A stretch of 64,000 bases of DNA from positions 124,001-188,000 of the forward strand of contig JAAXNY010000007.1 of assembly GCA_013420905.1 (NCBI GenBank), given 5' to 3'. Under the pieces are notes generated by a model. The model searched no databases. It was not told the origin of the DNA and was given only the letters and a program-made list of their open reading frames with translations. Both the position numbers and the translations under genes were made by a program. Numbering within the stretch: the first letter of the stretch is position 1; every line of letters begins with the position of its first letter. Origin of the DNA: Collybia mongolica. Its lineage: Eukaryota > Basidiomycota > Agaricomycetes > Agaricales > Clitocybaceae. Shown here one piece after another: positions 11,123-45,140 of the stretch.

Positions 11123-11709
11123 CAATGGTGGGATTTGGTGGCCTCAGTTTGGAGGGGAGTTATTGCTTTGGAAGAGTGGTGTGGAACAGGGGGGCAAGTA
11201 ATAGGGGGATTCAGGAGAGGGGGAGCAGGTTCGAGGTATGGGTCATTCATTTAGTTTGGACATTTATCTTCAACACTGGGGGGGAGTAGGACCATGCCCC
11301 GACAAGTGAAGGCAAACCTTTTTAAGGCCTTGGGAGGTTCAGACATGGTACAGTACAATACCGTTGGACTGCAGGTATCCTCAGTCTAGACCCATAATAT
11401 GACCTGGAGAGCAACTTAGTGTACAGCTCCACCCTGATGGCCCATTACAGATTACTTAGTGGTAATAGGTGCTTCTGCCCGCATGTAGCTGGGGCAAACC
11501 CACATGCACTTAATATTATTATATGAACCAAAAAAAAAAAAAGAATAATGTCTACTAATATACTTGTAATTATTTATAAACTATTCAAAAAGAGCTAAAA
11601 TTGTACATAGTTCCTAGTAAGGTCTACTAGTGTATTGATAAACAACAATAACCCAAATATGCCTAAATTCTACTAAGATCCATTAATACATCAATAATTA
11701 TCTATAGAA
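11123..11709. other. Repeat 3' end with poly-A tract, then AT-rich sequence
   Basis: The sequence up to about 11530 ends in a run of A after TATTATATGAACC (11530-11542), which looks like the 3' end of a LINE or SINE insertion. Downstream, to the Tc1 element, it is AT-rich with the repeated theme TCTACTA. No open frame with a recognisable domain is present. Confidence 0.4.
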
Positions 11710-11711
11710 TA

Positions 11712-13319
11712 CAGTGGCTCAAAAAACTGCCCCAATGTTTGTACATTTTTGAAAGATCAATATGGTATGAAGTGCTGACATAAGCAGGGGACCTGGGGTA
11801 ATTATGTAAGATACTATGACATCGTGGCTTTCCAATGGACCCTGGATCATGTGATTTGGATCAAAACCCATTAAGCTATAGGCCAAACAAAATGATTACT
11901 CATTGGGGCAGTTTTTTGACCCTCTATTAATTTTCTATCTAATACTTTGTATGACCACCTTTTGCCTTTATAACTGCTTGTATCCGCCTGGGCATACTTT
12001 CTATCAGGTTTTGGCATACCTCTGGTGGAATTTCACCCCACTCTTCAGCCAATCTATCCCACAACTCATGTACTCCTTTGGGTGGTGTCGGATATTCTTT
12101 AAGACGGCGCTTGAGATGTTCCCAAAGGTGTTCTATTGGATTCATGTCAGGGGATTGGGCAGGCCAGCCAAGGACTTGAATGTTGTTGTCTTCAAACCAC
12201 TGTGTGGCCAGTCCAGATGTGTGTTTGGGGTCGTTATCTTGCTGAAAGTAGCGCTCGCCATCCACCATTTCCAACTTCTCAAAACTTTCCTGAACTCCAC
12301 TCTCCAAAATTTCACAGTATTGAACCTTGTCCATGTTCCCCTGCACCTCTATGAGCTTTCCCACTCCATTCCACCCCATACAACCCCATACCATGAGGTT
12401 TCCTCCTCCTCCATGTTTGACAGTAGGTGATGTTGTTCTATCAGATGGTGGTTCTCCCCTTTGTTTCCAGACATAAACCTTTCCATCTGACCCAATCCTA
12501 TTGATTTTGGTCTCATCTGTCCATAGAACCCTTTTCCAGTCCTCCACAGTCCAGCTTTCATGATATTTTGCAAACTGGAGACGCCGGATGTGATGGGCTC
12601 GTTTGAGAAGAGGAGCTTTCCTCTTTGTAGCAGCATAAAATTGATTTTCCTTGAGTGCATTTCTGACTGTCTGGGGTGTGACAGGATTGGGGATGATGCC
12701 ATTGATGAATTGGGTAGCCTGAACTGCATTATCAAGCTTCCCTGACTTGATTTGACGAATAATTTACTGTTTGTCACGAACAGACAGCTTGGAGGGGCGG
12801 CCACCAAGGTTGTTTTCTTTGTTTCCATCCACATCTTTGCTGATCCTACTGATGGTACCCTTCCCTAGACCAGTTTTCTCCTTGATTTGACACTGAGAAT
12901 AGCCCTCATTGAGGAGAGAAACAACAGTATTGTGCTGAGCAGTAGAAATGGCTTTCATGATGGTGGTAAGAGGTCAAGAAGATGATTGAACCAATTCCAA
13001 CATGTCAAATTGATACAAATAAAGTCACATGACATTGTTTATTCTTCCCACAGTCCATAATGTTCTTGCATTGGATCATAAATGCCAGAATAATGGAAAA
13101 TAAGATAAGGGTCAAAAAACTGCCCCAATGAGTAGCCATTTTGTTTGGCTTATAGCTTAATGGATATTGATCCAAATCACATGATCCAGGGTCCATTGGA
13201 AAGCCACGATGTCATAGTATCTTACATAATTACCCCAGGTCCCCTGCTTATGTCAGCACTTCATACCATATTGATCTTTCAAAAATGTACAAACATTGGG
13301 GCAGTTTTTTGAGCCACTG
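11712..13319 (-). mobile_element. Tc1/mariner element, copy 2, complete
   Basis: A full 1608-bp copy bounded by TA duplications at 11710-11711 and 13320-13321. Perfect outer tips (CAGTGGCTC and GAGCCACTG) begin TIRs of about 212 bp. Each TIR has the 18-bp motif TCAAAAAACTGCCCCAAT at its outer end and the same motif inverted at its inner end. The transposase reads on the minus strand and is broken by one nonsense codon. Near-identity with copies 1 and 3 indicates recent activity. Confidence 0.97.
11939..12958 (-). pseudogene. Tc1/mariner transposase with a nonsense codon (copy 2)
   Basis: Same DD34E transposase as in copies 1 and 3. It carries the same TAA at codon 65 (12766-12764) as copy 1, so the two share a defective ancestor. 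Copy 2 has its own coding changes, notably CGT to TGT at codon 23 (Arg to Cys in the N-terminal helix-turn-helix) and a CG-to-CA change near 12593. Both are CpG transitions. The catalytic residues remain. Confidence 0.92.
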
Positions 13320-13321
13320 TA

Positions 13322-13913
13322 TATGCAAAAATAGCCCCCAAAATGCACACTTTTCAAGAAAATTGTCAAACTCATCAAGATTAGCATTAATTTTACTAAT
13401 TACTGGCAAATTTGACAGGGAGGTTTTTCTTGATGTGGCTAGATACACCAACTAGCAGTCCAACCTTGCCTTACAGCACCCCAGGTCCCATAACCACTGC
13501 ATTGGACAAGTAATTATAATTTATCAATCCACTTGAGGCACTAGCCAAGAAATGAAATGGTCACACTATGCTAACTCCTTCTCATTTCCAACATTCTACT
13601 ACCGTGCCACTGCTACTCCTTACTCCTCGCATGCTGCAAAAATGCATTTGGCCCTTATTCATCCTCACAAGTCCTCTACCATCCGAAACCAATACTGTAG
13701 TTGCTTATGGAGACGAAGGTGAAAAACCATACTCTATGTTCTTTTTCTGCGCTCATGACATTTTGATCCCGGAATTACCCCGCCGGCGTTATCTTATTTT
13801 GTTCCATATTAATTCAAGCACAAGTTCCGTATGGAAGCCGTCTGGACCTATCCAATCATTTATAACCATACACAACTCGCATCCTTCACCAACAAGGCAC
13901 CCACCAAACAGAC
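13322..13913. other. Flank between Tc1 copy 2 and F-box pseudogene
   Basis: No supported gene. A short ORF at 13568-13975 runs into the pseudogene in another frame. The sequence just before 13914 would be the former promoter of the F-box relic. Confidence 0.4.
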
Positions 13914-25244: not shown

Positions 25245-27420
<2,176 letters not shown>

Positions 27421-29301: not shown

Positions 29302-29570
29302 TGAAAGGGGGCTCCTGGGCTATAAGTGTGCTGATGCTATGAAATGTAATCCCTTACACACACACACCAAACCTAACAATCAACACACGAACAGTAGGAA
29401 TCGCCTGTTTTGAGTTCGGGTTCAAGTGCTTAGAAGCACTAAGCTTTGAATAGTACTAGCCAAAGCCCTTTCCAATGATCTCTCAACGGGTTTGATTTAG
29501 ACAAAAGCTTCAACACAGGTTTAAAAACCTGCTAGGTATATTTATAATATCTCTCAATCCAATAGACTGA

Positions 29571-29714
29571 GTACCAAGTGTACGTTCAATTATTAATGAT
29601 CCCAAGCGGATCTATAAGTCCAAGCGACTTATCAAACAATACAGTGCCAAGTGCACTAAGGCCAAGTGCCTAGTAATTCCAATGGACAATACGGTACTAA
29701 GTTCCAAGTGAACT
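29571..29714. other. Array of six hairpins with constant CAAGT/CAAGC loop (3' LTR)
   Basis: Six short perfect inverted repeats in 144 bp share a 5-nt loop while their stems differ: 29571-29583 (GTAC/GTAC), 29598-29612 (GATCC/GGATC), 29614-29632 (ATAAGTC/GACTTAT), 29643-29657 (AGTGC/GCACT), 29659-29671 (AGGC/GCCT) and 29700-29714 (AGTTC/GAACT). Loops are CAAGT in four and CAAGC in two. On the element's sense strand the loops read ACUUG or GCUUG. Function unknown. Confidence 0.85.
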
Positions 29715-29822
29715 AAGTTTCTTTAATTCTGTGGTTCTTCAATCAATTCCAATCAAGACACGTTGAAGCAATCTGATCCTTAATTCGGGCATGCAATAGT
29801 GTTTTAACAAATGTGATTTGTA

Positions 29823-31430
29823 CAGTGGCTCAAAAAACTGCCCCAATGTTTGTACATTTTTGAAAGATCAATATGGTATGAAGTGCTGACATAAGCAGGG
29901 GACCTGGGGTAATTATGTAAGATACTATGACATCGTGGCTTTCCAATGGACCCTGGATCATGTGATTTGGATCAATATCCATTAAGCTATAAGCCAAACA
30001 AAATGGTTACTTATTGGGGCAGTTTTTTGACCCTTATCTTATTTTCCATTATTCTGGCATTTATGATCCAATGCAAGAACATTATGGACTGTGGGAAGAA
30101 TAAACAATGTCATGTGACTTTATTTGTATCAATTTGACATGTTGGAATTGGTTCAATCATCTTCTTGACCTCTTACCACCATCATGAAAGCCATTTCTAC
30201 TGCTCAGCACAATACTGTTGTTTCTCTCCTCAATGAGGGCTATTCTCAGCGTCAAATCAAGGAGAAAACTGGTCTAGGGAAGGGTACCATCAGTAGGATC
30301 AGCAAAGATGTGGATGGAAACAAAGAAAACAACCTTGGTGGCCGCCCCTCCAAGCTGTCTGTTCGTGACAAACAGTCAATTATTCGTCAAATCAAGTCAG
30401 GGAAGCTTGATAATGCAGTTCAGGCTACCCAATTCATCAATGGCATCATCCCCAATCCTGTCACACCCCAGACAGTCAGAAATGCACTCAAGGAAAATCA
30501 ATTTTATGCTGCTACAAAGAGGAAAGCTCCTCTTCTCAAATGAGCCCATCGCATCTGGCGTCTCCAGTTTGCAAAATATCATGAAAGCTGGACTGTGGAG
30601 GACTGGAAAAGGGTTCTATGGACAGATGAGACCAAAATCAATAGGATTGGGTCAGATGGAAAGGTTTATGTCTGGAAACAAAGGGGAGAACCACCATCTG
30701 ATAGAACAACATCACCTACTGTCAAACATGGAGGAGGAGGAAACCTCATGGTATGGGGTTGTATGGGGTGGAATGGAGTGGGAAAGCTCATAGAGGTGCA
30801 GGGGAACATGGACAAGGTTCAATACTGTGAAATTTTGGAGAGTGGAGTTCAGGAAAGTTTTGAGAAGTTGGAAATGGTGGATGGCGAGCGCTACTTTCAG
30901 CAAGATAACGACCCCAAACACACATCTGGACTGGCCACACAGTGGTTTGAAGACAACAACATTCAAGTCCTTGGCTGGCCTGCCCAATCCCCTGACATGA
31001 ATCCAATAGAACACCTTTGGGAACATCTCAAGCGCCGTCTTAAAGAATATCTGACACCACCCAAAGGAGTACATGAGTTGTGGGATAGATTGGCTGAAGA
31101 GTGGGGTGAAATTCCACCAGAGGTATGCCAAAACCTGATAGAAAGTATGCCCAGGCGGATACAAGCAGTTATAAAGGCAAAAGGTGGTCATACAAAGTAT
31201 TAGATAGAAAATTAATAGAGGGTCAAAAAACTGCCCCAATGAGTAATCATTTTGTTTGGCCTATAGCTTAATGGGTTTTGATCCAAATCACATGATCCAG
31301 GGTCCATTGGAAAGCCACGATGTCATAGTATCTTACATAATTACCCCAGGTCCCCTGCTTATGTCAGCACTTCATACCATATTGATCTTTCAAAAATGTA
31401 CAAACATTGGGGCAGTTTTTTGAGCCACTG
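29823..31430 (+). mobile_element. Tc1/mariner element, copy 3, complete, inside the 3' LTR
   Basis: A 1608-bp copy flanked by TA at 29821-29822 and 31431-31432. The uninterrupted 5' LTR shows the empty site at 44444-44445 (GATTTGTATACTC), so this insertion followed the retrotransposon's arrival. TIRs are 29823-30034 and 31219-31430. Confidence 0.97.
30184..31203 (+). pseudogene. Tc1/mariner transposase with a different nonsense codon (copy 3)
   Basis: Codon 65 is sense (TCA), but codon 120 is TGA (30541-30543) where copies 1 and 2 have CGA. The 119-aa open frame covers the whole DNA-binding part; the catalytic half (WTDETK, DNDPKH, NPIEH) is open from Met 30595. Three changes here are C-to-T at CpG: the nonsense change, CCGGCG to CTGGCG just after it, and CCG to CTG near 31052. 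Confidence 0.93.
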
Positions 31431-32127
31431 TATACTCTATAGTCGCGCGAAGTGGGGGCAAGATTCCTTGCCTTAGCGCTACTCATCTACAGTCTATTTA
31501 TAGTGTACAAACTAAATATCATACGGAATTGTAAATTTTACACGGAACCGCGCTCCCGCGCGCCAAGGATCTGTATTCAATGCTGATGCGTCCTCTACAA
31601 CTTGGCGCGTGCGCCATGCGTGCCAATTATGCCGTTTACTGGTTACTTATCAAATATTGAAAGAGCTGGCTAAACTCTTATCAAGTCGCGACCGCGCGCT
31701 CCGTTATTTAAAACAGCGCGGCACTGTCATTTACTCCTCCTGATTGTCCCGGTTGCTTTTCACGGGGTCCCGCCGCTTCCGGTAGTTAACACCAAGTACC
31801 CCTGACTAGGATCGGGTTGTGCAAGTCCCGAATTTATAATTACTTCTCCTATTAATGATGATCCCCAGACTAATGATATCATACTACAACGGTTACTTAT
31901 GAACTAAGACACCGAGGTTGTAACCGGGCATGGTGAATAGGACTAATAATAGACCGTACTCATAGTCCTCTGTACTGATAGTGTATTATCCATTAGACTA
32001 GTTCACTCTGATTAGCCGTCTTGGAGCTCGACTCTAATCCTTTATTACCGTTTACTTGGTTATTAGAAATGATACTAATAGCCTTACTTGTCGACTTTAC
32101 AAGTGCAAACAATTTCGGGCCCTATCA

Positions 32128-32138
32128 TCTCCCCCATA
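32128..32138 (-). other. Polypurine tract of the gypsy element
   Basis: On the minus strand ATGGGGGAGA directly precedes the TG of the 3' LTR. Such tracts prime plus-strand DNA synthesis. Its position fixes the element's orientation as gag-pol on the minus strand. Confidence 0.8.
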
Positions 32139-32575
32139 CCACAAATGTAGACTGTCCTCAGTCTCTCTTTGCCGGCATGTTGGTCCAATACTTCGGGTCT
32201 GCACGCGTCTAATCTTTCAGTACAAGGTTACAATGGTTCCGCTTTTAGACAGGTAGGCGTGCGATGTTGGGATCGAGCCCAGAGGTTTACTTCCCATCAG
32301 GATCGTGACAGTTATATACGTCTCCTGAGAGAATACTTGACATTCGGACATCGCTTTACAGATATTTCAGTCATCTGAACCTTTCTCTCGTTATATTTCT
32401 GACACTTCAGCAAGAGATCGGTACTCCTGCTTGTCTTTTAGAACTTCGCAATGCAGGGTTGTGCGTTTTAAAAGCTCGCGCCCTTGCTAAGTTTTAGACA
32501 ATTTGGACTTTATAGCCCATTTCTAAATTTCTTTGCTATTCGCATCGCTCAAACACTCCAACTTCTCTAACCCAA

Positions 32576-34532
32576 ATGTCTTCTACTTCCACTTCCGCCA
32601 TGGCTCGTGCCCTGCGCTTGCCTTCCGCGCTGTCCCTCTCGCTCTCCGCCGCGATTTTACCGACTGAGGGCCGTTCCCCCACTATGGTCTATGTGGACCA
32701 GCCGGTCCCCTCATTTTCTGACCTCCTTGAAGATGCCGAGGGCGATGTCTTCGTCGCCATGGAGCAAGGGTGGATTATTATGGCCGAGGAGCTCGCGCCC
32801 CGTATGGACCATCAGGGCCCCCTTGACCTCGACGAGTTGATTGACTTCGTTGATCACTGCTCCATGCTCATCGTACGCCCATCTTTTACTTATTAAAACC
32901 TTTTACTTATTTACTGGTCTCAGGATGCCATCACTGGCGTGGTCCGTGGCGCGCATTTTTCGCTGCCATATCCGGCTATTCTCCTCCTGCGCGCGCTTCA
33001 CCTTCAAGTGATGCGCATCCCAGTCGACGTGCGCGAGGCTTCGTGGTCTTCCTGGCGCACGGTCATATCGACTGACCTGGGCCACAATTCCATTCTTCTG
33101 GTAAGTGACTTGTTTACTTTTTTACTCTGCCTGCCCTTGTCAAGCTGACTACCTTTTACTTTAGGGCCAGGCTCCCACTGTGGAGCAAGTCCTGGACCAG
33201 GTGGGGTCGCGCTTCGAGCGCGACAACGGTGAAAGTATCTTTCAGGATACTTTCCTCGTCCCTCCTCGCATGGTTGGCGCACTGCGCCGTTACCATCAGT
33301 ACCGGGACAGTTGGTCCGCCGCGCCCTTGCCGGCGCACTCCCCGGTCTTGGTACCAGCGGTTCGTCTAATACTGCTTTTTATTACTTTTCTTCTGTGGTT
33401 GACTTATTTCAATAGCCCCTCAAGCGGAAGTGTAACGAAGGGTCCAAGGGCAAAGGCCGCGCGGTTCCCCAGGTATATACTATCCTTTACTTTACGGGTT
33501 TCACATTATTCCTGACTTGCTTTCAAAATTCTAGTCCGACATGTCACGCGCCCAGGGGGCTGGCAGTGATGCCGCGCTGCGTCCCTCGGAAGCAGGTCCG
33601 GTATGTCTCTTTTCTTTTTTTGAACTCATTTACTTTTTACTCATTTTTATCTCCTTAGTCCTCTGGGCAGCCGCCAGCAAAGGTTGAGGTCCCCGAGCTC
33701 CGGCTCTTTGATGAAGAGATCACGCGCCAGTTGGCTCAAGAGGGGTTCGCGGAGTTGTTACCTCCCGCGGCCCCTTCTCCTCGCCGGTCACGTAAGACCA
33801 CTCGTTCTAGGGATAGGGTTCAGGCGACACGCCGCAAGCACGCGCTGGTTCCCAACCGGGAGCTGACGCCGCTACAGTCCCCTATTACCTCCCTGCTGGC
33901 TGACCTTGCGCCTCGGCGCTCTACCGTATGTTCATTACTCTTTTATTTCTTGTTACTGATCATTCTTACTAGGTGGGCTATCCTTGCACGATGTGCGCCA
34001 CCCGCGGCGACATCGAGTGCTCCTTCAACGGTTGGGGTAAACCGTGCGTTGAATGCGCCACCGCCAAGAAGGGGAAATGCAGCTTCAGTCTCACTCCCCA
34101 GAAGCGCGCTAGGCTTCGTGAGGATCTGGGGCCGATGCTTGGTGCGGGCATTTCTAGTAAGCCATTTTCTTTCTGTCTTTTCGTTTACTAATGATTTTAC
34201 TTATTCTACTAGCGGTTGCTGAAGCCTATGCTCAGCTAGGCGGCGCAGACTCTCTTGCCGCGGAGGTCATTCAGGCCGCTAACCGCGCGCTTGAAATGCG
34301 CAACTCCTTGTTGGCGCGCATAGTTGGCACCATCGGTAAGTTGTACGAGGAGGAAGGCCTGGAGGGCCTTCAAAACCTCTTGCTGACTACGCCAGCCACA
34401 GAGAGCGCTCTCCTCTTCTACGCGGATTTCCAGAACCTCCCTTGGCCGCCCTTGGAGGAAGAAGCAGAGGTTGATGACGGTTCTTCGTCGTCAAGTTCCT
34501 CTTCATCCGTGCCTGACAGCGAGGAGGAGTAG
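32576..34532 (+). CDS. Retrotransposon accessory gene 1: Zn2Cys6-like protein, eight exons
   Basis: Exons 32576-32872, 32924-33100, 33165-33350, 33416-33472, 33535-33600, 33659-33925, 33973-34156 and 34213-34532 all have GT-AG borders. They sum to 1554 nt, 517 residues. Introns are 47-65 nt. Exon 7 has a cysteine cluster spaced C-x2-C-x7-C-x8-C-x2-C-x7-C (CTMCATRGDIEC, then CVECATAKKGKC), close to the fungal GAL4-type binuclear zinc cluster. It follows an Arg/Lys-rich region (RSRKTTRSRDR in exon 6). The C-terminus is helical and ends in a Ser and acidic tail. The gene lies antisense to gag-pol between pol and the 3' LTR. A DNA- or RNA-binding regulatory role is inference. I know no named family for it. 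Confidence 0.8.
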
Positions 34533-35117
34533 CCGCGCCGCGCCCCCCCCCCTATGTTTTTTTTTTATCTACTTGTGTTTTCCCGGGCCCCTGTGCCCTT
34601 ACATACTACTTATTCCCCCGCCTTTCATTGGGCTTCAATTTTATTAATTGAAGTCCAACACATGTTTCTACATACAGTCCCCTGGACTATAAACAATACA
34701 ATTGGTTTACCCGTTGTTCTATCGTCTTCATAAGAAAGCTTCCGCCCTTGCACCGGCTACTTAAGTTATAAATAGTACAGTTTAATTCTGGTGCAATTCT
34801 CTCGATCATTAAGACCGTGGCGCGATCACTGACTTTTTATAGACAATCTATTTCAATCCTTGTAACCTTGGTAGGTTTTTCCAAATCGATTTTGCTTATA
34901 CCCCTCTCCCCCTCAACACTGACAACAACTGTCCCAGTTGTCATGCGGACACTGCCGCGCTCCACATGAATTTTTACGGAGCTCCTTTTTCAATTGGGCC
35001 CAGCATTTCAATTAGGCACGCGTCTCGGACCTGTTCAGTTGAAATGTATAGATTTTTCTGGGGATAGAACGCGCGCAACGAATGAGAGACTGGGTAGCGC
35101 TTCTCTAGTCGTAGAGG
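34533..35117. other. Spacer between the two accessory genes
   Basis: It holds the 3' region of accessory gene 1 (a C run then T run at 34544-34567) and upstream sequence of accessory gene 2. No open frame of note. It includes ATTGAAGTCC and GGACTAT type short inverted words but no convincing structure. Confidence 0.45.
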
Positions 35118-35125
35118 TATAAAAA
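35118..35125 (+). promoter_or_regulatory. TATA box of accessory gene 2
   Basis: TATAAAAA in the context GAGGTATAAAAAGGGCA lies 99 nt before the ATG at 35224. It is a good match to a pol II TATA element in the plus orientation, implying that this gene has its own promoter rather than depending on the LTR. Confidence 0.65.
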
Positions 35126-35223
35126 GGGCACTGGCTGTGCTTTTTGTCCCAAGACATCGCCCGACTCTATTATACTCTCTTTACAATGTTCTGGTTCAAA
35201 GAATCAATTTCCTCTGCATCATT

Positions 35224-36605
35224 ATGACTAGCCCCCCTAACTATCAAGACATCGAGAACTTCAAGATGGTCCAAGCTCAGTGGCACACCTTTCAAGCTCG
35301 TTTATCGATGGACACCCTTGTTGAACAAAGGGTCAGCGTCCGGAAGTTAGGCGAAACCGCAGTACACTTTTTACCAATTACACTTTTTAAAACGCCGTTT
35401 TTGTAACCAACTTTTACAATTTACAGCTACTCCTGACTGAGTCCAAATTGGTTTTGACGGAGCGGTCCTGGCAGAATGTTATTTTTGGCGTCCGTAAGGC
35501 ATTCCAGGGACTACAACATGTATACCCCGAGTTACTTCAAGAGCCTGTTTACCGTAACATTGTGACTCTGACTGCCGCTATTCACCGTCACCGTGAAAAG
35601 GTCCGCACTGAGCACCTGTCTCAAACCGCGGTGCGTGCTTTTTACCTCATCTCGTACTGTACTGCTCTTTAACTATGGTTTTCTGGTACTAGGTCCCTGC
35701 TACTGGTGGTGAAGCGGATGGTACCACTATTCCAGGCGAGGTCATTGCTGGCGGTGAATATGACGGTGACATTGAAATGTCTGGTACTGACTCGGTATGT
35801 TTCTTTTTAGCTACCACGCTGTCAGTGCGCAACATACTCAATGGCGTCTCTTCTTTACTCAAGAATATGGTCATTGATTCCGGCGCTACGGCTAGTGCTG
35901 CTGTCTCTGGATCAGTGACTAGTCGTCTCCTTAGTGAAGGACCAATCACCCGTAGCCGCAAGGAGAAGGAGAACATTAAGGTTCCCTGTGTCAAAAGGAC
36001 TAAGGCTGAAAAGGCTGCCATCAAGGTACCCATTCTTGTTTTTGCTCTGTCTATTACTTTGTTTCTTATTCCTACAGGACGGTAAGCGTTCCGAGCTCAA
36101 TCGCGGCAGCACTCTTCGTCCCAAAAAGCGTACGAGGCAGGACACCCCGGATGAAGATCCAAAGGCATCTGCTGAGGGTACGTTTTCTAATAATAGATGG
36201 TTCTAAATTTATACCGACTGTGCATCAGATACTCATGTCTTTATTGACTTCCGTCCCTCCAAGGAGCACGATGTAGTCTTAGCGCGGGCGCGCTTGATTG
36301 CAGACGCGGGCGATCCCATGTCGCACACCAAGCAAGCCCTCGGTAGGATGCTCTTAAACTACCGCGCTGAGTTGGAGGAGATCAGTCATACAGTGTCCTT
36401 CTTATTGAAGCGTCGTGATGCCACTATGGACGAGGTTACTCACCTCAACGGTCTAATGAACGAGGCCGCTCTGGAGGGGGGCTCTGACGAGGCTGCCACT
36501 GCGAGCGCTACGGAAGTCCATGACCAGGATGACAATGATAAGGAGGAGGTAGCTCCGGCTGACGTGCCCTTGCCCGAGGTTGAAGACGACTTCATATCTG
36601 CTTGA
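35224..36605 (+). CDS. Retrotransposon accessory gene 2: charged protein, six exons
   Basis: Exons 35224-35361, 35427-35630, 35693-35794, 35864-36025, 36078-36177 and 36229-36605 have GT-AG borders and sum to 1083 nt, 360 residues. The N-terminal half is helical (FKMVQAQWHTFQARLSMDTL, then VIFGVRKAFQGLQHVYPELL). The middle is basic with nuclear-signal-like runs (SRKEKE and KKRTRQDTPDED). The C-terminal exon is helical (MLLNYRAELEEISHTVSFLL) and ends in an acidic tail. No cysteine cluster or enzyme motif is visible. It converges on pol, whose stop lies about 147 bp away. The third intron could be shorter (AG at 35809), but the chosen junction keeps the frame. Function unknown. Confidence 0.78.
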
Positions 36606-36751
36606 GGACAGTCCAATTAACTTCCTCTTGAGTTATGGTGTCTCTCCCCACGCTCCTTTGTATTACTGTCTTTACTCGGCTTAACACTGTCCTTACTACT
36701 TAGCTTAGTTGCTTATACTGTCTTTACTGCTTCTGTTTCCATACTGATTTA

Positions 36752-39700
36752 TCACCTATGCAACTTCCGGTGTGCCATAGTAGTTTGTGGTAGCGCCGGC
36801 GCTATCCCCTCCTCAGTGTTCTCACTAGAGCTTGACTCTGAATCGGACTGATCCAATTGGACTCTGTCAAAAGTATAGTCACGCTCCTTGTAAACTTGCC
36901 TATTAGCGGGATCTTTCGATTCCACTAAAGCATTTAGTGTTTCGCTAGAGATGTCTATTGGGTCTTGCAGATTATCCGGCAGTTCAATTGTACTCCTAGC
37001 AAAATAGGGAATAACCCTAAACGCCCCCACTTTATGTTGCCACACCGATCCATCCATTTTGCAAACAATATAGGCTCCCCCGCGGTTTCGTCTCAGGACT
37101 ATCATTGGTCCCAGGTACCGTGGCTTCAGCTTTTTATCGAGCGAACTTTCGACCTCGGTATTTCTAACTAGTACTAAAGTTCCTGGTTTGAAATCATAGT
37201 CTCTGATGGTCGCGCTGTGATCCTTCTCATACTGTAATAGTCTCCTTCGTTTTTCTATATTGATACGTTTCCTCATATCGGCCACATGCTGGACGTGCTT
37301 AGCTAGAGCCTGCGCTCTAAACCCAATGAGTTCCTCTGTAGTCAATATTTTTCCTGGTAACTTTACTAACCAAGTGGCTTCAATAATATCTAACGGTAAG
37401 GTTGGGTGCGTGCCCGTAATCATAAAATAGGGGGAGCAACCCGTCCCTTTCCGTATAGTAATTCTGTCAGCCCACATTACATGGTGGAAGAAGTAGTACC
37501 ACTTCTTTACATCACCACCTGTAGCTTTGAAGACAGCTTGACGCACATCCCAATGTGCGCGCTCGGCGATCCCATTTCCTTTGGAATTGTATGGTGATAT
37601 ACTTATTCCTGTAATACCATACTTGGATTCCAGCCACGCTTTGGCTGCGACAAAGGCAGGACCATTATCCGTTACAATTTCCGTTAGGGAACCCCATCTA
37701 CAAATTACTTCTTCGAATAGCCACCTTCCCAAGGTCTTGCCATCCTCAGATTCGAGGGGCGCGCCTTCCATCCACGAAGACAGCGCACATCTTCCTTGGA
37801 CAATGTATTTATAACCATTAGACGATGGGCTCATATACATGGTGTCCGCATGCAATACTTGGAATATAGACGGCGTGTGGGTTATGACAGGAGGGATTCT
37901 CAACAAAGTTAAGAGCCTTGTCTGACAGATGTGACATGACTTCACATACCATGATACATCGCGTTCCATTTCTGGCCACCAAAATCTTTTATCTATTAAG
38001 GATTTTGTTGCATAGAAACCCCTATGTCCAACAGAATCGTGAGACGCCTTCATCATATATGTTTGGTGATTTTTATCAACAACAAGCTGGTGCGCGCTAT
38101 CGATATTTTTCCTATACATCCTGCCTTCTGGATCCAAAAAGAAATTAGACGCCTGCCTTGCAAACTTTAGGTAGGCGCGATCCGTCATTCCTTTTGGTCT
38201 CTTTTGTGGTCTTTTTAACCATTCTTTTATTAAAGGTAGGTTTTTATCCTGTTCCTGCGCTGTAGGTGTTTGTTTAGACTCGTCATATACTTCCCTTACA
38301 TTAGGGTCATATTTAAACTTTTCATCGGGTATGACAGTAGTATTTACAAGTTGCTTTAGATAAGCTTCTCTTTGAATACCGAACCGTCCTAAACCTAAGT
38401 GCTGTTTTACTTCTCCAATAAATGCTGCTTCACCAGCCCAGGCATTGTTTACTTCCACTTCAAAATCAGAGATTTCCTTCGCAAGTTGGAATAAATATCC
38501 GCCGTGCGTGTCGATCTCCTCTTTAAAATCTGACAGCTCCAAAGGGTCATCTAACCCTTCCGTTGGGTTGATAAACTTTAAAGGACCTGAGGGTTCGTCG
38601 TAACCATCGTCTGGGTCCGGGTAGACAGGATCCCCTAGCCGCGCGTCTCGTCTTGACAGACCATCTGGGCCAAAGCCTTTACCAGCTTTATGAACCAGAG
38701 TAAAGTGGAACATAAGTATCCTATCAATCCACCTATTTACCGTTGCATTAGGTCCTAGACTTGGGTTTGATAACATCCCCTTAATGTACTTTGCATCCGT
38801 TTCCACTACCAAATTTCGTACTCCAATAAACCAATAATAACATGCCATTAGAACTCTCATCAATCCGAATAGCTCTCGTTTGGGTTGTGAGAAGCGCGCT
38901 TCGCGCTCATTCAGAGTTATCGAGTCAAATCTAGCATAGTGCTTTCTTCCAGGTATATCAGGGTCTTCCTGATAGATATAGTAGCCTACGGCTTTCCATG
39001 ACGTATCTACTGACAATACCACTGGCGTATTCCAGGTGTAATTAATTGGACGGAGCGCGGGGCTATTTTTAAGTGCGTCTAACAATAGCTGCTGCGCTTC
39101 TTCTTGCTCAGGCCCCCATATCCAAGGTTCGCTACTTCTAGTTAACTTTTGAATTGGTTGGCCTATACGGGCGAAGTCTTTAATGAAATTCCTGCATACA
39201 CCAATAGTTCCCATGTAAGCGCGTACTTCACTGACATCTTTGCATGGTCCCCATCTTTCAACTACACCGATTCTATCTGTAGTAGGTTTTCGTCCTTCAT
39301 AGGTACATCTATGTCCTACCACTAGAATTTCACTTGCGCATAACATAGACTTATATCCTGAAAACGTTCCTCCAGAATACTTCATTCTCTGTACGACGCG
39401 ATTTACATTTTGCATATGTTCCCAGAAGAAGCGCCTAACACCTGGAGCACCAGGTAGCTCTTCTTCTGTTCCGTCCAGCAGTTCGTAGCACGTTGCTGGA
39501 CCGCGCACGGGTACATCATCAATGTAGGGTATTGTGACATGTGGTACCTCATCCTGTAGGATGTATGTGACATCATCATGAAATATTGGAACTGAATTCG
39601 TCCATCCCATAGGAAGTGTTACTAGTCTCAGCGCGCCAAACGGTGTTTGGAACGTGGTTAGATCGCGCGAGGTTTCTGCTAAAGGCCTCTCATCATATCC

Positions 39701-40771
39701 TACATATAGATCCATCATTCCGCCACAAGCGCGCCCTGCGAAGTGTTCTGCTAGTTCTTCGGTAGCGGGTGGTAAGCCCGAGTGCGCTATTGTGACTGCA
39801 TTCAGCGGTTCTAGACTATGTACAATTCTAAACTTCTTTCCTGGGCCTTTCTTTAATACGGTAAACCATCTAGACCTATATGATGAATTGGATCTCTCAT
39901 AGACTCCTGCATCAATTTTAGTTTTGATGATTTTACAAACATCTTCATAGATCCCTGGTGGGATTCTAATGTTCCTTTCTGTCCACGGCGTATGTGGGAC
40001 TACTGGTATCTCGACGGGAGGAAAATATTCCTTCTTAAAGCTACCGCGCTCGCTATCATTCCAGGCAAAACCATCATTATGTTTGCACATAAAGTCGTGG
40101 ATTATATCCATCTCTTTAGGTTTTAAGAAGCTCTCTTCTTCGTGTACCCTTTGGAATTCCGCGCGCCTTTCCTCAGTATACCTTCCAGTTGGTTTAAACG
40201 GAGGTGGGTTAGGCGTTAGAACGGGTAGGGCCGCTAAAGGGTCACCCTTTATATCTCTGATAATTCTAAATTTATCAGGCAGGTCCGCCAGTGTTGGTTT
40301 TGTTTTCAAATGTACTGGTTTATACTTCTTTCCTACTAGCTGATCCATGGGCTCAATATTACACTTTTCACTTGTTGCAGTTCCAAGACCGCGCTCGTTG
40401 GTGCCAATTTGCCACTGCTTTAATTTACTTAAAGCTTTATCGATCATGGGCTGTTTTTGAGCGTATGTCATAGGTCTAGTGGGTGTACTTGCTGGGTCGC
40501 TGCTGTTCTGCTCGTAGTTTATTACTGGTCCATCGCACTCATCTACGGAAGCCAAGTACGTGGCTAGTAATTCGCGTTCAGGTACTGTACTATTCATGTT
40601 CACATCACTTCTAGACAAAAAGACATCTCTAAGTTCTTTGTGACCAAAATTCCGTTTATCAGTAGGGTGTCTATAACCCGTTATAATAAAGTTTCCGTTC
40701 TCATCTTCAGCAATTTCTACGGCTAGCTCTCCTTGATCACTTTGGATTAATTCATCGAAGGCCGAAAATCC
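36752..40771 (-). CDS. pol: Pol: reverse transcriptase, RNase H and integrase
   Basis: The frame stays open upstream of the first Met, back through the overlap with pro, so it is probably entered by -1 frameshifting near 40771-40765. Using residues counted from 40618: RT around 240-370 with the YIDD active site at about 365. RNase H about 533-656 (SVDTS, ELFGLMRVL, ETDAKYI). Integrase zinc-binding HHCC (H860, H865, C895, C898) and a DDE core (HADTM D925, TDNGP D984, GIAER E1019). A GPY/F-like segment is near the C-terminus (PRYLGPMIV). Length and order fit Ty3/gypsy. No stop or frameshift is seen, so the enzyme may be functional. Confidence 0.95.
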   Translation of the reverse strand, partial: GFSAFDELIQSDQGELAVEIAEDENGNFIITGYRHPTDKRNFGHKELRDVFLSRSDVNMNSTVPERELLATYLASVDECDGPVINYEQNSSDPASTPTRPMTYAQKQPMIDKALSKLKQWQIGTNERGLGTATSEKCNIEPMDQLVGKKYKPVHLKTKPTLADLPDKFRIIRDIKGDPLAALPVLTPNPPPFKPTGRYTEERRAEFQRVHEEESFLKPKEMDIIHDFMCKHNDGFAWNDSERGSFKKEYFPPVEIPVVPHTPWTERNIRIPPGIYEDVCKIIKTKIDAGVYERSNSSYRSRWFTVLKKGPGKKFRIVHSLEPLNAVTIAHSGLPPATEELAEHFAGRACGGMMDLYVGYDERPLAETSRDLTTFQTPFGALRLVTLPMGWTNSVPIFHDDVTYILQDEVPHVTIPYIDDVPVRGPATCYELLDGTEEELPGAPGVRRFFWEHMQNVNRVVQRMKYSGGTFSGYKSMLCASEILVVGHRCTYEGRKPTTDRIGVVERWGPCKDVSEVRAYMGTIGVCRNFIKDFARIGQPIQKLTRSSEPWIWGPEQEEAQQLLLDALKNSPALRPINYTWNTPVVLSVDTSWKAVGYYIYQEDPDIPGRKHYARFDSITLNEREARFSQPKRELFGLMRVLMACYYWFIGVRNLVVETDAKYIKGMLSNPSLGPNATVNRWIDRILMFHFTLVHKAGKGFGPDGLSRRDARLGDPVYPDPDDGYDEPSGPLKFINPTEGLDDPLELSDFKEEIDTHGGYLFQLAKEISDFEVEVNNAWAGEAAFIGEVKQHLGLGRFGIQREAYLKQLVNTTVIPDEKFKYDPNVREVYDESKQTPTAQEQDKNLPLIKEWLKRPQKRPKGMTDRAYLKFARQASNFFLDPEGRMYRKNIDSAHQLVVDKNHQTYMMKASHDSVGHRGFYATKSLIDKRFWWPEMERDVSWYVKSCHICQTRLLTLLRIPPVITHTPSIFQVLHADTMYMSPSSNGYKYIVQGRCALSSWMEGAPLESEDGKTLGRWLFEEVICRWGSLTEIVTDNGPAFVAAKAWLESKYGITGISISPYNSKGNGIAERAHWDVRQAVFKATGGDVKKWYYFFHHVMWADRITIRKGTGCSPYFMITGTHPTLPLDIIEATWLVKLPGKILTTEELIGFRAQALAKHVQHVADMRKRINIEKRRRLLQYEKDHSATIRDYDFKPGTLVLVRNTEVESSLDKKLKPRYLGPMIVLRRNRGGAYIVCKMDGSVWQHKVGAFRVIPYFARSTIELPDNLQDPIDISSETLNALVESKDPANRQVYKERDYTFDRVQLDQSDSESSSSENTEEGIAPALPQTTMAHRKLHR

Positions 40772-41952
40772 TGCTCCGGTTGTCTTTTCAACAGCTTAGG
40801 CGGTGATCCCTTTGCATGGGTAGGGATAGTACACCTTCGTCCCGTGTTAGGGTCCGTGATAGTGACTACTTGTCCCCCGTCCCGAGCATTTTTGATCTGA
40901 CTTTCCGTGAGTGTATCAAATGGTCTCCCGAGCAATACTTTGTATGCGGGTGAATTTATGATATGTACTTGGAGGTAGATGGCCATGTCATTAAACAAGA
41001 AAGGAACATTGCGCGCTAATCCCGCTGTTTTCTCAACTTGTTTATTAGCACTCTGCATGTGTATGACAACGTCCGGATCCCATGAAATATCTAAGTCTAA
41101 AGCCGTTTGTTTAGCCATTGATACTATTTGGGATCCCCCATCTAATAAAGATTCCTCCGTTCCTGCCCCATTTATTACTGGATATACTGCGCGCAAAGAG
41201 GCCGATTCTTTTGCTACATACAACTGTTTGGGCTCTTCCCCAGCTGGTAAAGATTCTAAATACTGTAGGACTGGGTCTCCGCATATTATAGATCCCTTAG
41301 GTATTCCGCCGCGGTCATACTCCGAGATGAAGAAAGACTGGAATGGGATTGACTCTACTGGTAGCGCGTCATGCCGTAAGTAGTTATCATCAAGTTCCCA
41401 GTCCCCTCCAAAGGGTAAGACGTCTTCCTCATCTATTCCGTTTATTTGCAAGTTAGCGTCCCTTTGGGTGAGGGACTTACGTCTGGCAGTTACAATATTC
41501 TTTATCCCATCTCTAATGGTTTTTGACGAGCCCATTAACTCTCCCGTGGTCAATGTGATAGGGTTGTCTAACACTTTAGCAATTATATCGCCACCTTTTA
41601 ATTTTACTTCTATCGGGGACTTAGTTTCATAAGTCGGACCGCGCTTAGTGTTAAAATTAGGTAGCGGATCAACTGGTTCAGGGTTGCGTTCCGTTCTCCG
41701 GGGTATGTAGGGTACCACGGGCACATCGATGTAGGGTAATTCTTTTCGTACTGGAGACTTTACTGATGGTTCAACAAATTTTACTTTCTTTTTCCTAGGA
41801 GACGGCACTACCAACTCCTCTTCGCTACTATCCCGACTACTCTCCGAATCGTTACTTTCTTGACGACTATTTCTGTTTTTATTTCGGTCCTCTGGCTGTC
41901 TCTTGGAACGCGACCTAGTCGTAGGTCTAGCGTGTTCCTTAGCCTCCTTCAT
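40747..41952 (-). CDS. pro: Pro: retropepsin-like aspartic protease region
   Basis: A 401-residue frame between gag and pol. The N-terminal about 90 residues are basic and Ser-rich (TRSRSKRQPEDRNKNRN). The protease core is at about residues 260-375: LLDGGSQIVSM carries the catalytic Asp in a D-G-G-S variant of the D[ST]G motif, and VLLGRPF is the usual flap-distal ILGR-type motif. As a retropepsin it would act as a dimer to process Gag and Pol. The ATG lies 5 nt after the gag stop in the -1 frame, and the frame is also open upstream through GGGTTTC, so it may be made as a Gag-Pro fusion. Confidence 0.85.
   Translation of the reverse strand: MKEAKEHARPTTRSRSKRQPEDRNKNRNSRQESNDSESSRDSSEEELVVPSPRKKKVKFVEPSVKSPVRKELPYIDVPVVPYIPRRTERNPEPVDPLPNFNTKRGPTYETKSPIEVKLKGGDIIAKVLDNPITLTTGELMGSSKTIRDGIKNIVTARRKSLTQRDANLQINGIDEEDVLPFGGDWELDDNYLRHDALPVESIPFQSFFISEYDRGGIPKGSIICGDPVLQYLESLPAGEEPKQLYVAKESASLRAVYPVINGAGTEESLLDGGSQIVSMAKQTALDLDISWDPDVVIHMQSANKQVEKTAGLARNVPFLFNDMAIYLQVHIINSPAYKVLLGRPFDTLTESQIKNARDGGQVVTITDPNTGRRCTIPTHAKGSPPKLLKRQPEQDFRPSMN
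40765..40771 (-). other. Candidate -1 frameshift site, pro to pol
   Basis: On the minus strand GGATTTT is phased G GAT TTT in the pro frame, 16 nt before the pro stop (40749-40747). Slipping back one base enters the pol frame (GGA TTT TCG GCC TTC), which has a stop just upstream of the overlap and is open afterwards. GGAUUUU is a known -1 shift heptamer in dianthoviruses. Confidence 0.6.
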
Positions 41953-41957
41953 CGGAC

Positions 41958-43469
41958 CTAATTGAAACCCGACTCTTTAACCTTGTTTTGGTTATTGAGT
42001 TCTGCTACCTGCCCTAATAAAGTACTCATTTGTGCTTGTAAGGCTACTATGTCAGGATTCGGCGCGCTCTTTGCCGTAGGATTATAGTTATTATTTATAT
42101 ATTCCTGTTTCTGCATCTGAGGCGGTACTGGCAACGCAGTTTGCGCGCTCTGTTGTCCTAACATTTGTTGTGCTTGAAATTGTGCCATTTGTGCCATTAT
42201 GGCTTTCAAGGTTCCAATGTCGTTACTATTGTCTGCTGCATTATGTGACTGCATAATGGACAATACTCCTGGAGCGGGTCCTTCCGTGACATCTCCGTAA
42301 TAAAGGGCCGCTACCTTCTTTGAATGGAAGTGTTCCACTTTATCTTTCAATGATACCGTTTCTGGTTCTCTTGGAATATATGATCCGTCTGGTAAGCATA
42401 CTCCTCCATTTGCGTTGGTTTTTATTTTCCCTTCCTCAAAATGTTTCTGTTTCTCGGGACAGGCCATTATGAAGTGTCCGGGTGTAAAACAGTAGTGACA
42501 TTTATACGCATTTGGTCTTTGCGGTTGTCCTTCTTTAGGCTTTCCGTACTGATTCTGATACTGATGCTGCTGGGGTGCGCTATTCGTGGCATGGTTCTGA
42601 ACAGTTGCTTGTTGAAGCGCTTTCATTACATCCTCGAATCCACTCCTCGTATTCTTCTCATTTACTTGGAGACGGTCTAACAAATTAACTATTTGTTGTT
42701 TTATTTCATCCATCTCTACTTTGATTTTGGGCGCTGCTGTTGCTGTTACGGACGTTATAAACGATCTATTTGTGTCTGGAATATTCATGTTGGCTACACC
42801 TTCAGAAATGCTGATTGCAGTTGCTATAACTTCCTCCAGATCGTACTGATCCCCTTTTCGTCGCGCGAGCGCGGTGGCTTCGGCAATAGTATTAGGATCT
42901 GCTCGGTTGTTTGTAGCAACGGCTTGTCCTGCCTGTGTAGCATTAGACTGATTATTCCCTAGCAGGGTTAGCCTTCCTTGTACTTGGGATCTGAAGACTT
43001 CGTCTAGACATCCCAAGAACTTGGTAACTAATTCTTGGTTAGAGATAATAGGTGGCCTAACTCCCAAGAGTTTAATAGATTCTGCTTTGAATTCACGCTT
43101 CAGCTTTTTCAGCGCGGCCTCATCGGTTACTCCAATACGTGGGTTGGCGCGACACACTGCTTCTAACTTGGCTACTGATCCTTCTACTTGATCGAGTGCT
43201 TCCGGATAACTAGAGATCAACTCTGTCTTGAAATCCGTCCAAGTGCCTGTCTTATAGTGGTCTAATGCCCTCCACTCATTCTCTGATTGTAGGTCTGCGT
43301 ATTTTCCTAACATTAACTTCTTTTCTTCATCATTTGTAATGTTACACTCCTTCCATAGGACCTCCATTCGCTCCAGAAACCGGATTAAACCTGTGGGCTC
43401 TTTTCCTTTGAATACTGGTGCATCACGGACGCCTGGTTGGGGCATATATTTACGAGGGGGTTCAGTCAT
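41958..43469 (-). CDS. gag: Gag: capsid and nucleocapsid protein
   Basis: 503 residues from the first ATG. The capsid-like region (about 25-210) has FLERMEVLWKECNI, WRALDHYKTGTW and FLGCLDEVF as in Ty3/gypsy Gag proteins. A single CCHC zinc knuckle, CHYCFTPGHFIMAC, at about residues 321-334 should bind the genomic RNA. The C-terminal third is Gln/Met-rich with a predicted coiled segment. The frame remains open for about 115 codons upstream of this ATG to a TAG at 43820-43818, with coding-like composition, so the true N-terminus may be longer. Confidence 0.92.
   Translation of the reverse strand: MTEPPRKYMPQPGVRDAPVFKGKEPTGLIRFLERMEVLWKECNITNDEEKKLMLGKYADLQSENEWRALDHYKTGTWTDFKTELISSYPEALDQVEGSVAKLEAVCRANPRIGVTDEAALKKLKREFKAESIKLLGVRPPIISNQELVTKFLGCLDEVFRSQVQGRLTLLGNNQSNATQAGQAVATNNRADPNTIAEATALARRKGDQYDLEEVIATAISISEGVANMNIPDTNRSFITSVTATAAPKIKVEMDEIKQQIVNLLDRLQVNEKNTRSGFEDVMKALQQATVQNHATNSAPQQHQYQNQYGKPKEGQPQRPNAYKCHYCFTPGHFIMACPEKQKHFEEGKIKTNANGGVCLPDGSYIPREPETVSLKDKVEHFHSKKVAALYYGDVTEGPAPGVLSIMQSHNAADNSNDIGTLKAIMAQMAQFQAQQMLGQQSAQTALPVPPQMQKQEYINNNYNPTAKSAPNPDIVALQAQMSTLLGQVAELNNQNKVKESGFN
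41964..41970 (-). other. Candidate -1 frameshift site, gag to pro
   Basis: GGGTTTC on the minus strand is phased G GGT TTC in gag, 4 nt before the gag stop (41960-41958). It is a canonical X XXY YYZ heptamer. A -1 slip gives GGG TTT CAA and continues without a stop into pro. Reinitiation at the pro ATG (41952) is the alternative. Confidence 0.65.
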
Positions 43470-43902
43470 GATTACTGAACGGTTCTGAGTAGCTAACGAG
43501 TTCGGGTTTGCTACTGGGTTTACTACGGACGATCTTCCGCGCGCTACTGGTTTACTAGTAGTCGATATGTTTCCTAAGGGCTCTGGAGTTCTAAATACTT
43601 GCCTTGGTCCTGAAGATCCAAAGGCTGGTTGTGAAGATCCTCGTGTGCGCGCTCGCCTAGGAGGTGGTAACGACTCTGTTACTCCAGCGTTTTGCGAATT
43701 TTTAGTCTGCTGCGTTTTTGTAGCTACTTGTCTTGCAAGTGGCTGATTAGTTAGTCTGTTTGACGAGCTGGCTTGTGGGCGTGGCTCTTGAGACAGATTG
43801 ACTAAACTTTCTCCGCTCTACTTCAATTTGTAGACGACGTTACTCGTCTTGGTATAATATTTTTCAAAGAAAGATGCTCTCTTTAGACTATTCAAAAACT
43901 CT

Positions 43903-43923
43903 GAACCCTCGCAGTGGGCTCCA
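43903..43923 (-). other. Primer binding site of the gypsy element
   Basis: Two nt inside the 5' LTR the minus strand starts TGGAGCCCACTGCGAGGGTTC. Its complement reads like a tRNA 3' end: CCA terminus, then acceptor strand and GAACCC of a T arm. I cannot name the tRNA; it is not the tRNA-Thr at 61075-61156. Confidence 0.75.
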
Positions 43924-43925
43924 GA

Positions 43926-45140
43926 TGAAAGGGGGCTCCTGGGCTATAAGTGCACTGATGCTATGTAATGTAATCCCTCACACACACACACACCAAACCT
44001 AACAATCAACACATGAACAGTAGGAATCGCCTGTTTTGAGTTCGGGTTCAAGTGCTTAGAAGCACTAAGCTTTGAATAGTACTAGCCAAAGCCCTTTCCA
44101 ATGATCTCTCAACGGGTTTGTTTTAGACAAAAGCTTCAACACAGGTTTAAAAACCTGCTAGGTATATTTATAACTCTCGATCCAATAGACTGAGTACCAA
44201 GTGTACGTTCAATTATTAATGATCCCAAGCGGATCTATAAGTCCAAGCGACTTATCAAACAATACAGTGCCAAGTGCACTAAGGCCAAGTGCCTAGTAAT
44301 TCCAATGGACAATACGGTACTAAGTTCCAAGTGAACTAAGTTTCTTTAATTCTGTGGTTCTTCAATCAATTCCAATCAAGACACGTTGAAGCAATCTGAT
44401 CCTTAATTCGGGCATGCAATAGTGTTTTAACAAATGTGATTTGTATACTCTATAGTCGCGCGAAGTGGGGGCAAGATTCCTTGCCTTAGCGCTACTCATC
44501 TACAGTCTATTTATAGTGTACAAACTAAATATCATACGGAATTGTAAATTTTACACGGAACCACGCTCCCGCGCGCCAAGGATCTGTATTCAATGCTGAT
44601 GCGTCCTCTACAACTTGGCGCACGCGCCATGCGTGCCAATTATGCCGTTTACTGGTTACTTATCAAATATTGAAAGAGCTGGCTAAACTCTTATCAAGTC
44701 GCGACCGCGCGCTCCGTTATTTAAAACAGCGCGGCACTGTCATTTACTCCTCCTGATTGTCCCGGTTGCTTTTCACGGGGTCCCGCCGCTTCCGGTAGTT
44801 AACACCAAGTACCCCTGACTAGGATCGGGTTGTGCAAGTCCCGAATTTATAATTACTTCTCCTATTAATGATGATCCCCAGACTAATGATATCATACTAC
44901 AACGGTTACTTATGAACTAAGACACCGAGGTTGTAACCGGGCATGGTGAATAGGACTAATAATAGACCGTACTCATAGTCCTCTGTACTGATAGTGTATT
45001 ATCCATTAGACTAGTTCACTCTGATTAGCCGTCTTGGAGCTCGACTCTAATCCTTTATTACCGTTTACTTGGTTATTAGAAATGATACTAATAGCCTTAC
45101 TTGTCGACTTTACAAGTGCAAACAATTTCGGGCCCTATCA
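43926..45140 (-). repeat. 5' LTR of the gypsy element, uninterrupted
   Basis: 1215 bp, starting TGATAGGGCCCG and ending CCCCCTTTCA on the minus strand. It carries the same six CAAGT/CAAGC hairpins (about 44194-44337) and the undisturbed TA (44444-44445) that Tc1 copy 3 hit in the other LTR. It should contain the pol II promoter for gag-pro-pol. The right flank (CCGTGCCC) does not repeat the left flank (GCCCGG), so there is no target duplication. Confidence 0.93.

Follow-up and report, generated by a model that had tools for sequence, protein, structure and literature searches.

Two intron-rich genes antisense to gag-pol in a Ty3/gypsy retrotransposon family of Collybia mongolica

Two genes with introns, here called A and B, lie antisense to gag-pol between pol and the 3' long terminal repeat (LTR) of a Ty3/gypsy retrotransposon of the mushroom Collybia mongolica. 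The element is found in a stretch of 64,000 nucleotides (nt) of contig JAAXNY010000007.1 (assembly GCA_013420905.1, positions 124,001 to 188,000 of the forward strand), which was analysed as a whole and is referred to as the window. We consider it likely that the element represents an autonomous-looking family in which both genes are fixed accessory parts that are transcribed, spliced and probably encode nuclear regulators. Two genes antisense to gag-pol were proposed in a first-pass annotation of the window and were reproduced in our analysis, in which both lie on the plus strand, opposite to a gag-like open reading frame (ORF), an ORF at the protease position and pol (Table 1).

Copies of the element and the fixed place of A and B

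In the host genome (46 Mb, 26 contigs), at least 36 places that contain the A-B stretch, whole or in part, were identified by a DNA search. The two genes are shared by many copies of the element. From these 36 places, 22 (the window copy and L009-L029) were aligned, and 14 were left out. When gene B exon 6 was used for a protein search of the host genome, there were at least 92 matches, and the most distant of the matches listed was still 80% identical. Among the 40 scored pol copies, 35 carry this exon on the side where it was expected; its distance from the pol query is 598-599 nt in 34 copies and 2208 nt in one. Due to this constant distance, B is to be regarded as a standard part of the element. 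As far as sequences can tell, the same applies to A, and the term “cargo”, under which the two genes were first described, does not hold. An antisense coding gene that is conserved like gag-pol is found between pol and the 3' LTR in most copies, as seen for B in the survey of pol copies and for A in the aligned copies.

Several pol copies deviate from this pattern. C24 has no match to gene B exon 6 and contains an A-B stretch with a broken B, and C16, also without a match, sits at the end of a contig. In C2 and C21, gene A matches are found on the expected side and closer than in the window, and B must thus be at least partly missing there. A further locus, L036, has the same pol (97% identity over 492 amino acids) and neither A nor B in the 7 kb examined. 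Its homology stops at window position 36717, which is 35 nt beyond the pol ORF and still 112 nt away from gene B. The sequence past pol (L036:1515-5600) is foreign, perhaps derived from another transposon, and contains an antisense ORF (4247-5287) that matches KOW (E 3.5e-6) and, more weakly, SPT5-like families. We read the absence of A and B from L036 as the result of an insertion or truncation, and a variant of the element without the two genes is possible. L037 did not yield a notable match to the pol, A or B of the element.

The edge of the 3' LTR (TGAAAGGGGG on the plus strand) could be located in 17 of 21 loci. The flanking sequences differ between loci, and the copies are thus separate insertions; the flank in L015 is internal sequence of another element copy. 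On inspection by eye, the flanks of the 3' LTR edges in L009-L028 often carry CG (CGC, CGG), a possible sign of a target preference. An exact target site duplication of 4-6 bp was not found in the flanks of the window copy.

In the old copies L030-L035, A and B differ from the window by many changes such as arginine to cysteine, histidine, glutamine or tryptophan (by eye), which fits decay by CpG deamination. L032 was omitted from the feature table of these copies because of a split match, and L030 and L031 have no match to A.

Gene models and introns

The first-pass model of gene A, with eight exons and GT-AG borders, was correct except for the length of its product, which is 520 and not 517 amino acids. 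The seven introns of A are 47-64 nt long. The frame is open from the start codon in 20 of the 22 aligned copies; L019 is frameshifted, and the start codon is changed in L014.

For gene B, the earlier model of six exons and 360 residues results if the first donor is placed at 35362. The alternative position 35332 (350 amino acids) was set aside as less likely, because the codons 35332-35361 (VSVRKLGETA) match VNVRKMGETA of a Collybia nuda protein. These codons are free of indels and stops in 22/22 copies. The third intron of this model (35795-35863) is doubtful. The stretch has a constant length and no stop in the 22 copies. In five old copies it ranks with the best conserved regions of B (93-97%), and 18 of the 22 copies have the reading ALSVRDILNGVSSLLK here, which resembles VTSARDVLNVVSTLLK of C. 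nuda. Against an exonic nature, its GT and AG are retained in all 22 copies, and a 7-nt length change is located there in the old copy L035. On these sequence features the stretch is more likely exonic, which would leave gene B with five exons and 383 amino acids and reduce the introns of both genes from the 12 first counted to 11. Alternative splicing of the stretch is possible.

The frame of B is open in 19/22 copies and broken in L015, L020 and L027; this check was run on an earlier, shorter model, and the two stretches added later are stop-free in all 22 copies. In L027, gene B is split by 1220 nt that include the LTR-edge sequence TGAAAGGGGG, probably a solo LTR of the same element family. 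The separate TATA box claimed for gene B was confirmed, with TATAAAA kept in 22/22 copies.

Exons and introns behave differently in the alignment of the 22 copies. Only 7 distinct indel events were counted in 2715 nt of exons, each of them in a single copy and three of them out of frame. The introns (11-intron model) contain 24 events in 624 nt, 21 of which are not multiples of three, and the A-B spacer contains 25 events in 691 nt. All 242 acceptors read AG and 237 of 242 donors read GT, and the introns of both genes are present in every copy. By the sequence, these 11 (or 12) stretches have the form and the behaviour of spliceosomal introns.

Selection on A, B and pol

Variants that are common to at least two copies were compared with singletons. 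The ratio of nonsynonymous to synonymous variants per site (N/S) for shared variants was 0.227 for gene A (67 N, 100 S), 0.243 for gene B (29 N, 36 S; 360-amino-acid model) and 0.179 for the C-terminal portion of pol (34 N, 54 S). The pol values are based on 17 of the 22 copies, with L017, L021, L026 and L027 (best block below 2500 nt) and L029 (pol outside the retrieved sequence) omitted. Among singletons, N/S was 0.528 for A, 0.466 for B and 0.232 for pol. For gene A, synonymous changes make up a larger share of the shared variants than of the singletons (Fisher p 0.0002), a pattern to be expected from selection that is active during replication of the element and ceases after insertion. The four forward wrong frames of A and B gave N/S values of 1.08-1.69, and four of the six antisense frames (two per gene) were at least 1.0.

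A comparison of dN/dS across copies, which the first-pass annotation had proposed, gave all-pairs means of 0.206 for A, 0.256 for B and 0.183 for pol. Together, these values mark the exons of A and B as being under purifying selection like pol. Both proteins are likely required while the element replicates, and the fact that A and B are intact in most of the copies examined suggests that the element needs them and that they are not junk.

The 5' half of gene A falls into two classes which are up to 10% apart and are found on nearly identical pol sequences (by eye; window 32500-34200 versus 36700-40000), with pol about 1-3% divergent from the window in the copies compared. Between the two classes, dN/dS of gene A is 0.162 (20/22 copies; the mixed copies L016 and L028 were excluded), and exon 1 has a dS of 0.448 with a dN/dS of 0.047. 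Template switching in reverse transcription or gene conversion would account for this mosaic.

The encoded proteins

The products of A and B each contain clusters of basic residues and an acidic tail. Exon 7 of gene A encodes six cysteines in the pattern CX2CX7C-X8-CX2CX7C, which may hold zinc. The canonical first loop of Zn2Cys6 proteins is CX2CX6C. Given this difference and the absence of a Pfam match, the protein cannot be assigned to the Zn2Cys6 family, to which it had been likened in the first-pass annotation. No Pfam family was found for gene A at E values up to 5 or for exon 7 alone at E values up to 10. A search of solved structures with exon 7 alone gave unrelated matches, the best of them at E 1.3.

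Gene B has a homologue in another member of the Agaricales, Collybia nuda (BDZ94DRAFT_1234893, 371 amino acids), with 59% identity from end to end. No Pfam family was found for B at E values up to 5. The C. nuda protein gave Pfam matches below threshold only (MAJIN, E 0.091; Red1, E 2.5), which were not used, and no match to solved structures at E values up to 1. Viral contigs searched with this homologue and with pol contained no relatives.

The host element and its surroundings

The element is about 14 kb long, lies on the minus strand and occupies positions 29302-45140 of the window, including a nested transposon of 1.6 kb. Two LTRs, a probable primer binding site, a polypurine tract and RNase H ahead of integrase were found, the features by which the sequence is classified as a Ty3/gypsy LTR retrotransposon. 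The LTRs of about 1.2 kb each are 99.6% and 96.8% identical across two aligned blocks. In pol, Pfam matches were obtained for RT_RNaseH (589-693), Integrase_H2C2 (906-960) and rve (979-1070, under its own cut-off), and no match for the reverse transcriptase domain at E values up to 0.001. The zf-CCHC_2 match of the gag-like ORF (E 8.5e-6, 25.9 bits) is just below the cut-off of 27, and the ORF at the protease position gave no match in the Pfam search.

Table 1. Features of the element and of genes A and B in the window
Feature	Position	Strand	Description and basis
Gene A	32576-34532	+	8 exons, 520 amino acids; exon 7 encodes the cluster of six cysteines; acidic tail
Gene A exons	32576-32872, 32924-33100, 33165-33359, 33416-33472, 33535-33600, 33659-33925, 33973-34156, 34213-34532	+	
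TATAAAA ahead of gene B	35118-35124	+	106 nt from the start codon of B
Gene B	35224-36605	+	More likely 383 amino acids, 5 exons (360 amino acids, 6 exons if 35795-35863 is spliced)
Gene B exons	35224-35361, 35427-35630, 35693-36025 (or split at 35795-35863), 36078-36177, 36229-36605	+	
3' LTR	29302-32127	-	LTR alignment; divided in two by the nested DNA transposon
Polypurine tract GGTATGGGGGAGA	32128-32140	-	Beside the 3' LTR; called from position and composition
pol ORF	36752-40795	-	1347 codons stop to stop; RNase H, then integrase; Pfam
ORF at protease position	40747-41976	-	409 codons stop to stop; assigned by position; overlaps the gag and pol ORFs
gag-like ORF	41958-43817	-	619 codons stop to stop; zinc knuckle; Pfam zf-CCHC_2
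Probable primer binding site TGGAGCCCACTGCGAGGGTTC	43903-43923	-	Called from position and TGG start
5' LTR	43926-45140	-	LTR alignment; sense strand reads TGATAG...CCCTTTCA
Nested DNA transposon	29821-31432	.	Interrupts the 3' LTR and does not belong to the element; 229-nt inverted repeats

The terminal inverted repeats of the nested DNA transposon are 95% identical. Elsewhere in the window, 1-1501 and 11709-13209 form a 100% identical inverted pair, and 11709-11938 and 13093-13322 are the arms of an element that resembles the nested transposon. The transposons at 29821-31432 and 11709-13322 (and also at 1-1501) were judged to be of the same family from arm length and spacing only. A minisatellite of 27-nt units is located at 26600-26987, within an open frame of 285 codons (26257-27114).

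Proposed function and alternative explanations

In the explanation that we favour, that of an element with two fixed antisense accessory genes, A and B would be transcribed as plus-strand mRNAs from promoters of their own and spliced by the host. The conserved TATA box of B and, for A, the stretch beside the 3' LTR are candidate promoters. The genomic RNA used for reverse transcription would be the strand opposite to the introns, which would thus not be lost from it. This route of intron survival was already put forward in the first-pass annotation; it fits the introns being present in all 22 copies, and we infer it likewise. The proteins would act in the nucleus and regulate transcription, silencing or integration of the element, as has been proposed for the antisense proteins of the plant elements Retand and Grande. 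Judged from the composition of the proteins (basic clusters, acidic tails and, in A, the six cysteines) and from this analogy, nuclear regulation of the element is probably their most likely role.

A more far-reaching version seems possible to us, although we would sooner doubt than accept it. Here, A and B would form a two-gene regulatory module that keeps its 11 introns through its antisense position and is controlled by host splicing, and alleles of gene A would be swapped between copies and act on the element's own transcription or on host silencing. As part of this version, at least gene B would be older than the split from the C. nuda lineage, unless it was transferred between lineages.

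Several observations weigh against the explanation we favour. Neither A nor B has a known domain, and a homologue of A was not found among 7996 scored candidates or, with residues 350-448 at E values up to 0.1, among 82 candidates. Five of the 242 donors are not GT. Variable positions are not significantly rarer in the splice dinucleotides than inside the introns (3/44 versus 89/580, p 0.18, at low diversity). The contrast between shared and singleton variants is weak for B (p 0.078) and does not exist for pol (p 0.35). One antisense frame per gene also has a low N/S (A 0.267, B 0.308), as is to be expected for a frame with third positions that coincide with those of the gene. Finally, the pol copy C10:1671553 has no B match and no explanation for it.

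A different role for the proteins, as replication helpers (e.g. structural or envelope-like partners of the particle) and not as nuclear regulators, appears unlikely. As no domain was found, other roles are possible, and residues 13-28 (approximately) of gene A are rather hydrophobic. However, no long transmembrane-like stretch stands out (by eye, without a predictor), and the clusters of basic residues together with the acidic tails speak for the nucleus. We find it quite unlikely that A and B are passive cargo, either as host genes taken up in the recent past (transduction) or as a nested insertion. Introns and a separate promoter do resemble ordinary fungal genes, and gene-capturing retrotransposons are known in plants (PMC7264820). 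Yet recent capture is at odds with the position of B (expected side in 35 of the 40 pol copies, one distance in 34), with N/S values of A and B similar to that of pol, and with the 59% identical homologue in another species, which points to age. A distinct host paralogue of B was not seen either, with 116 of 294 candidates scored.

The antisense stretch could also work as an RNA, either long noncoding (lncRNA) or double-stranded (dsRNA), that regulates or silences the element, with the reading frames being incidental. Intron-containing antisense lncRNAs of transposons, Ty3 included, have been cloned in Blumeria hordei (PMC10648671), and a dsRNA function was proposed for plant antisense transcripts (PMC7264820). 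Against this background, selection at the codon level, the small number of indels in exons and the protein conservation with C. nuda make a role as RNA alone very unlikely; an RNA role in addition to the A and B proteins may exist. Nothing speaks directly for the idea that A and B serve the fungus as domesticated genes under selection on the host, but selection alone cannot show who benefits. Dozens of copies with different flanks, together with decayed old copies, fit selection on replicating elements, and we regard a benefit to the host as highly improbable.

Comparison with known systems

What is new in the C. mongolica element is the intron-rich two-gene module, since antisense accessory genes at this place are already known. 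The gene brtn of Boty-like Ty3/gypsy elements in Botrytis cinerea was reportedly described by Zhao and co-workers in 2011. In the region from pol to the 3' LTR, antisense genes have been described for the plant elements Grande, RIRE2, Retand and PvRetro13 and for the fungal Boty (PMC7264820, PMC11963269, PMC8365987, PMC4227169). The plant cases bear out what the first-pass annotation had stated of Grande and Retand (PMC7264820, PMC11963269). Against its expectation, a fungal precedent also exists, as Boty elements of Botrytis and Sclerotinia carry the antisense brtn at this position (PMC7264820, PMC8365987). With Boty, our element shares the fungal Ty3/gypsy background and the presence of additional antisense coding sequence in this region (PMC7264820). 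By description, the level at which the two were compared, Boty differs in being an ascomycete element with a chromodomain (PMC4227169), and one antisense gene is named for it. Protein searches with A and B gave no match named brtn, and no direct comparison with the brtn sequence was made.

Retand and Grande likewise have a long region between pol and the 3' LTR with conserved antisense ORFs, and the Grande antisense protein is described as nuclear and as having its own promoter (PMC11963269, PMC7264820). In contrast to our element, their hosts are plants, and a TRP28 domain is found in 97% of the Retand clusters (PMC11963269). This domain (PF04195) was not detected in A or B by Pfam at E values up to 5. 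The word “intron” does not occur in the main text of either paper (PMC11963269, PMC7264820). In B. hordei, spliced transcripts are known that run antisense to retrotransposons, including Ty3 elements (PMC10648671). Those lncRNAs are described as noncoding (PMC10648671), whereas selection on the sequence indicates that the exons of A and B are protein-coding.

Outside the retrotransposons, the antisense genes of deltaretroviruses, such as HBZ, can be compared with A and B. HBZ is spliced and has few exons, and it belongs to an infectious animal virus; we know of no homology between these genes and A or B. The likeness lies in the position antisense to the genomic RNA and in the nuclear protein (PMC11963269).

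Other added ORFs, domains or accessory genes have been described (PMC5408684, PMC5348765, PMC12477816). A survey of fungal LTR elements (PMC3248453) contains neither “intron” nor “opposite”. A literature search, which covered titles and the openings of abstracts and had most subscription papers outside its scope, yielded no publication that describes antisense protein genes rich in introns for a gypsy element of fungi. A review urges its readers to look for antisense and spliced transcripts (PMC7264820).

Gene prediction may list such genes as “hypothetical proteins” of the host, as is the case for the C. nuda homologue of B, and they may thus inflate fungal gene counts. Retroelements replicate through an RNA copy, and introns should disappear from them. 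The presence of 11 introns in a module kept in many copies illustrates a simple means of avoiding this loss, and the strand logic that would let a retroelement keep its introns is directly testable in this element. Antisense accessory genes, known from plants and one group of ascomycetes, are thereby extended to a mushroom lineage, in the form of two proteins without a known family.

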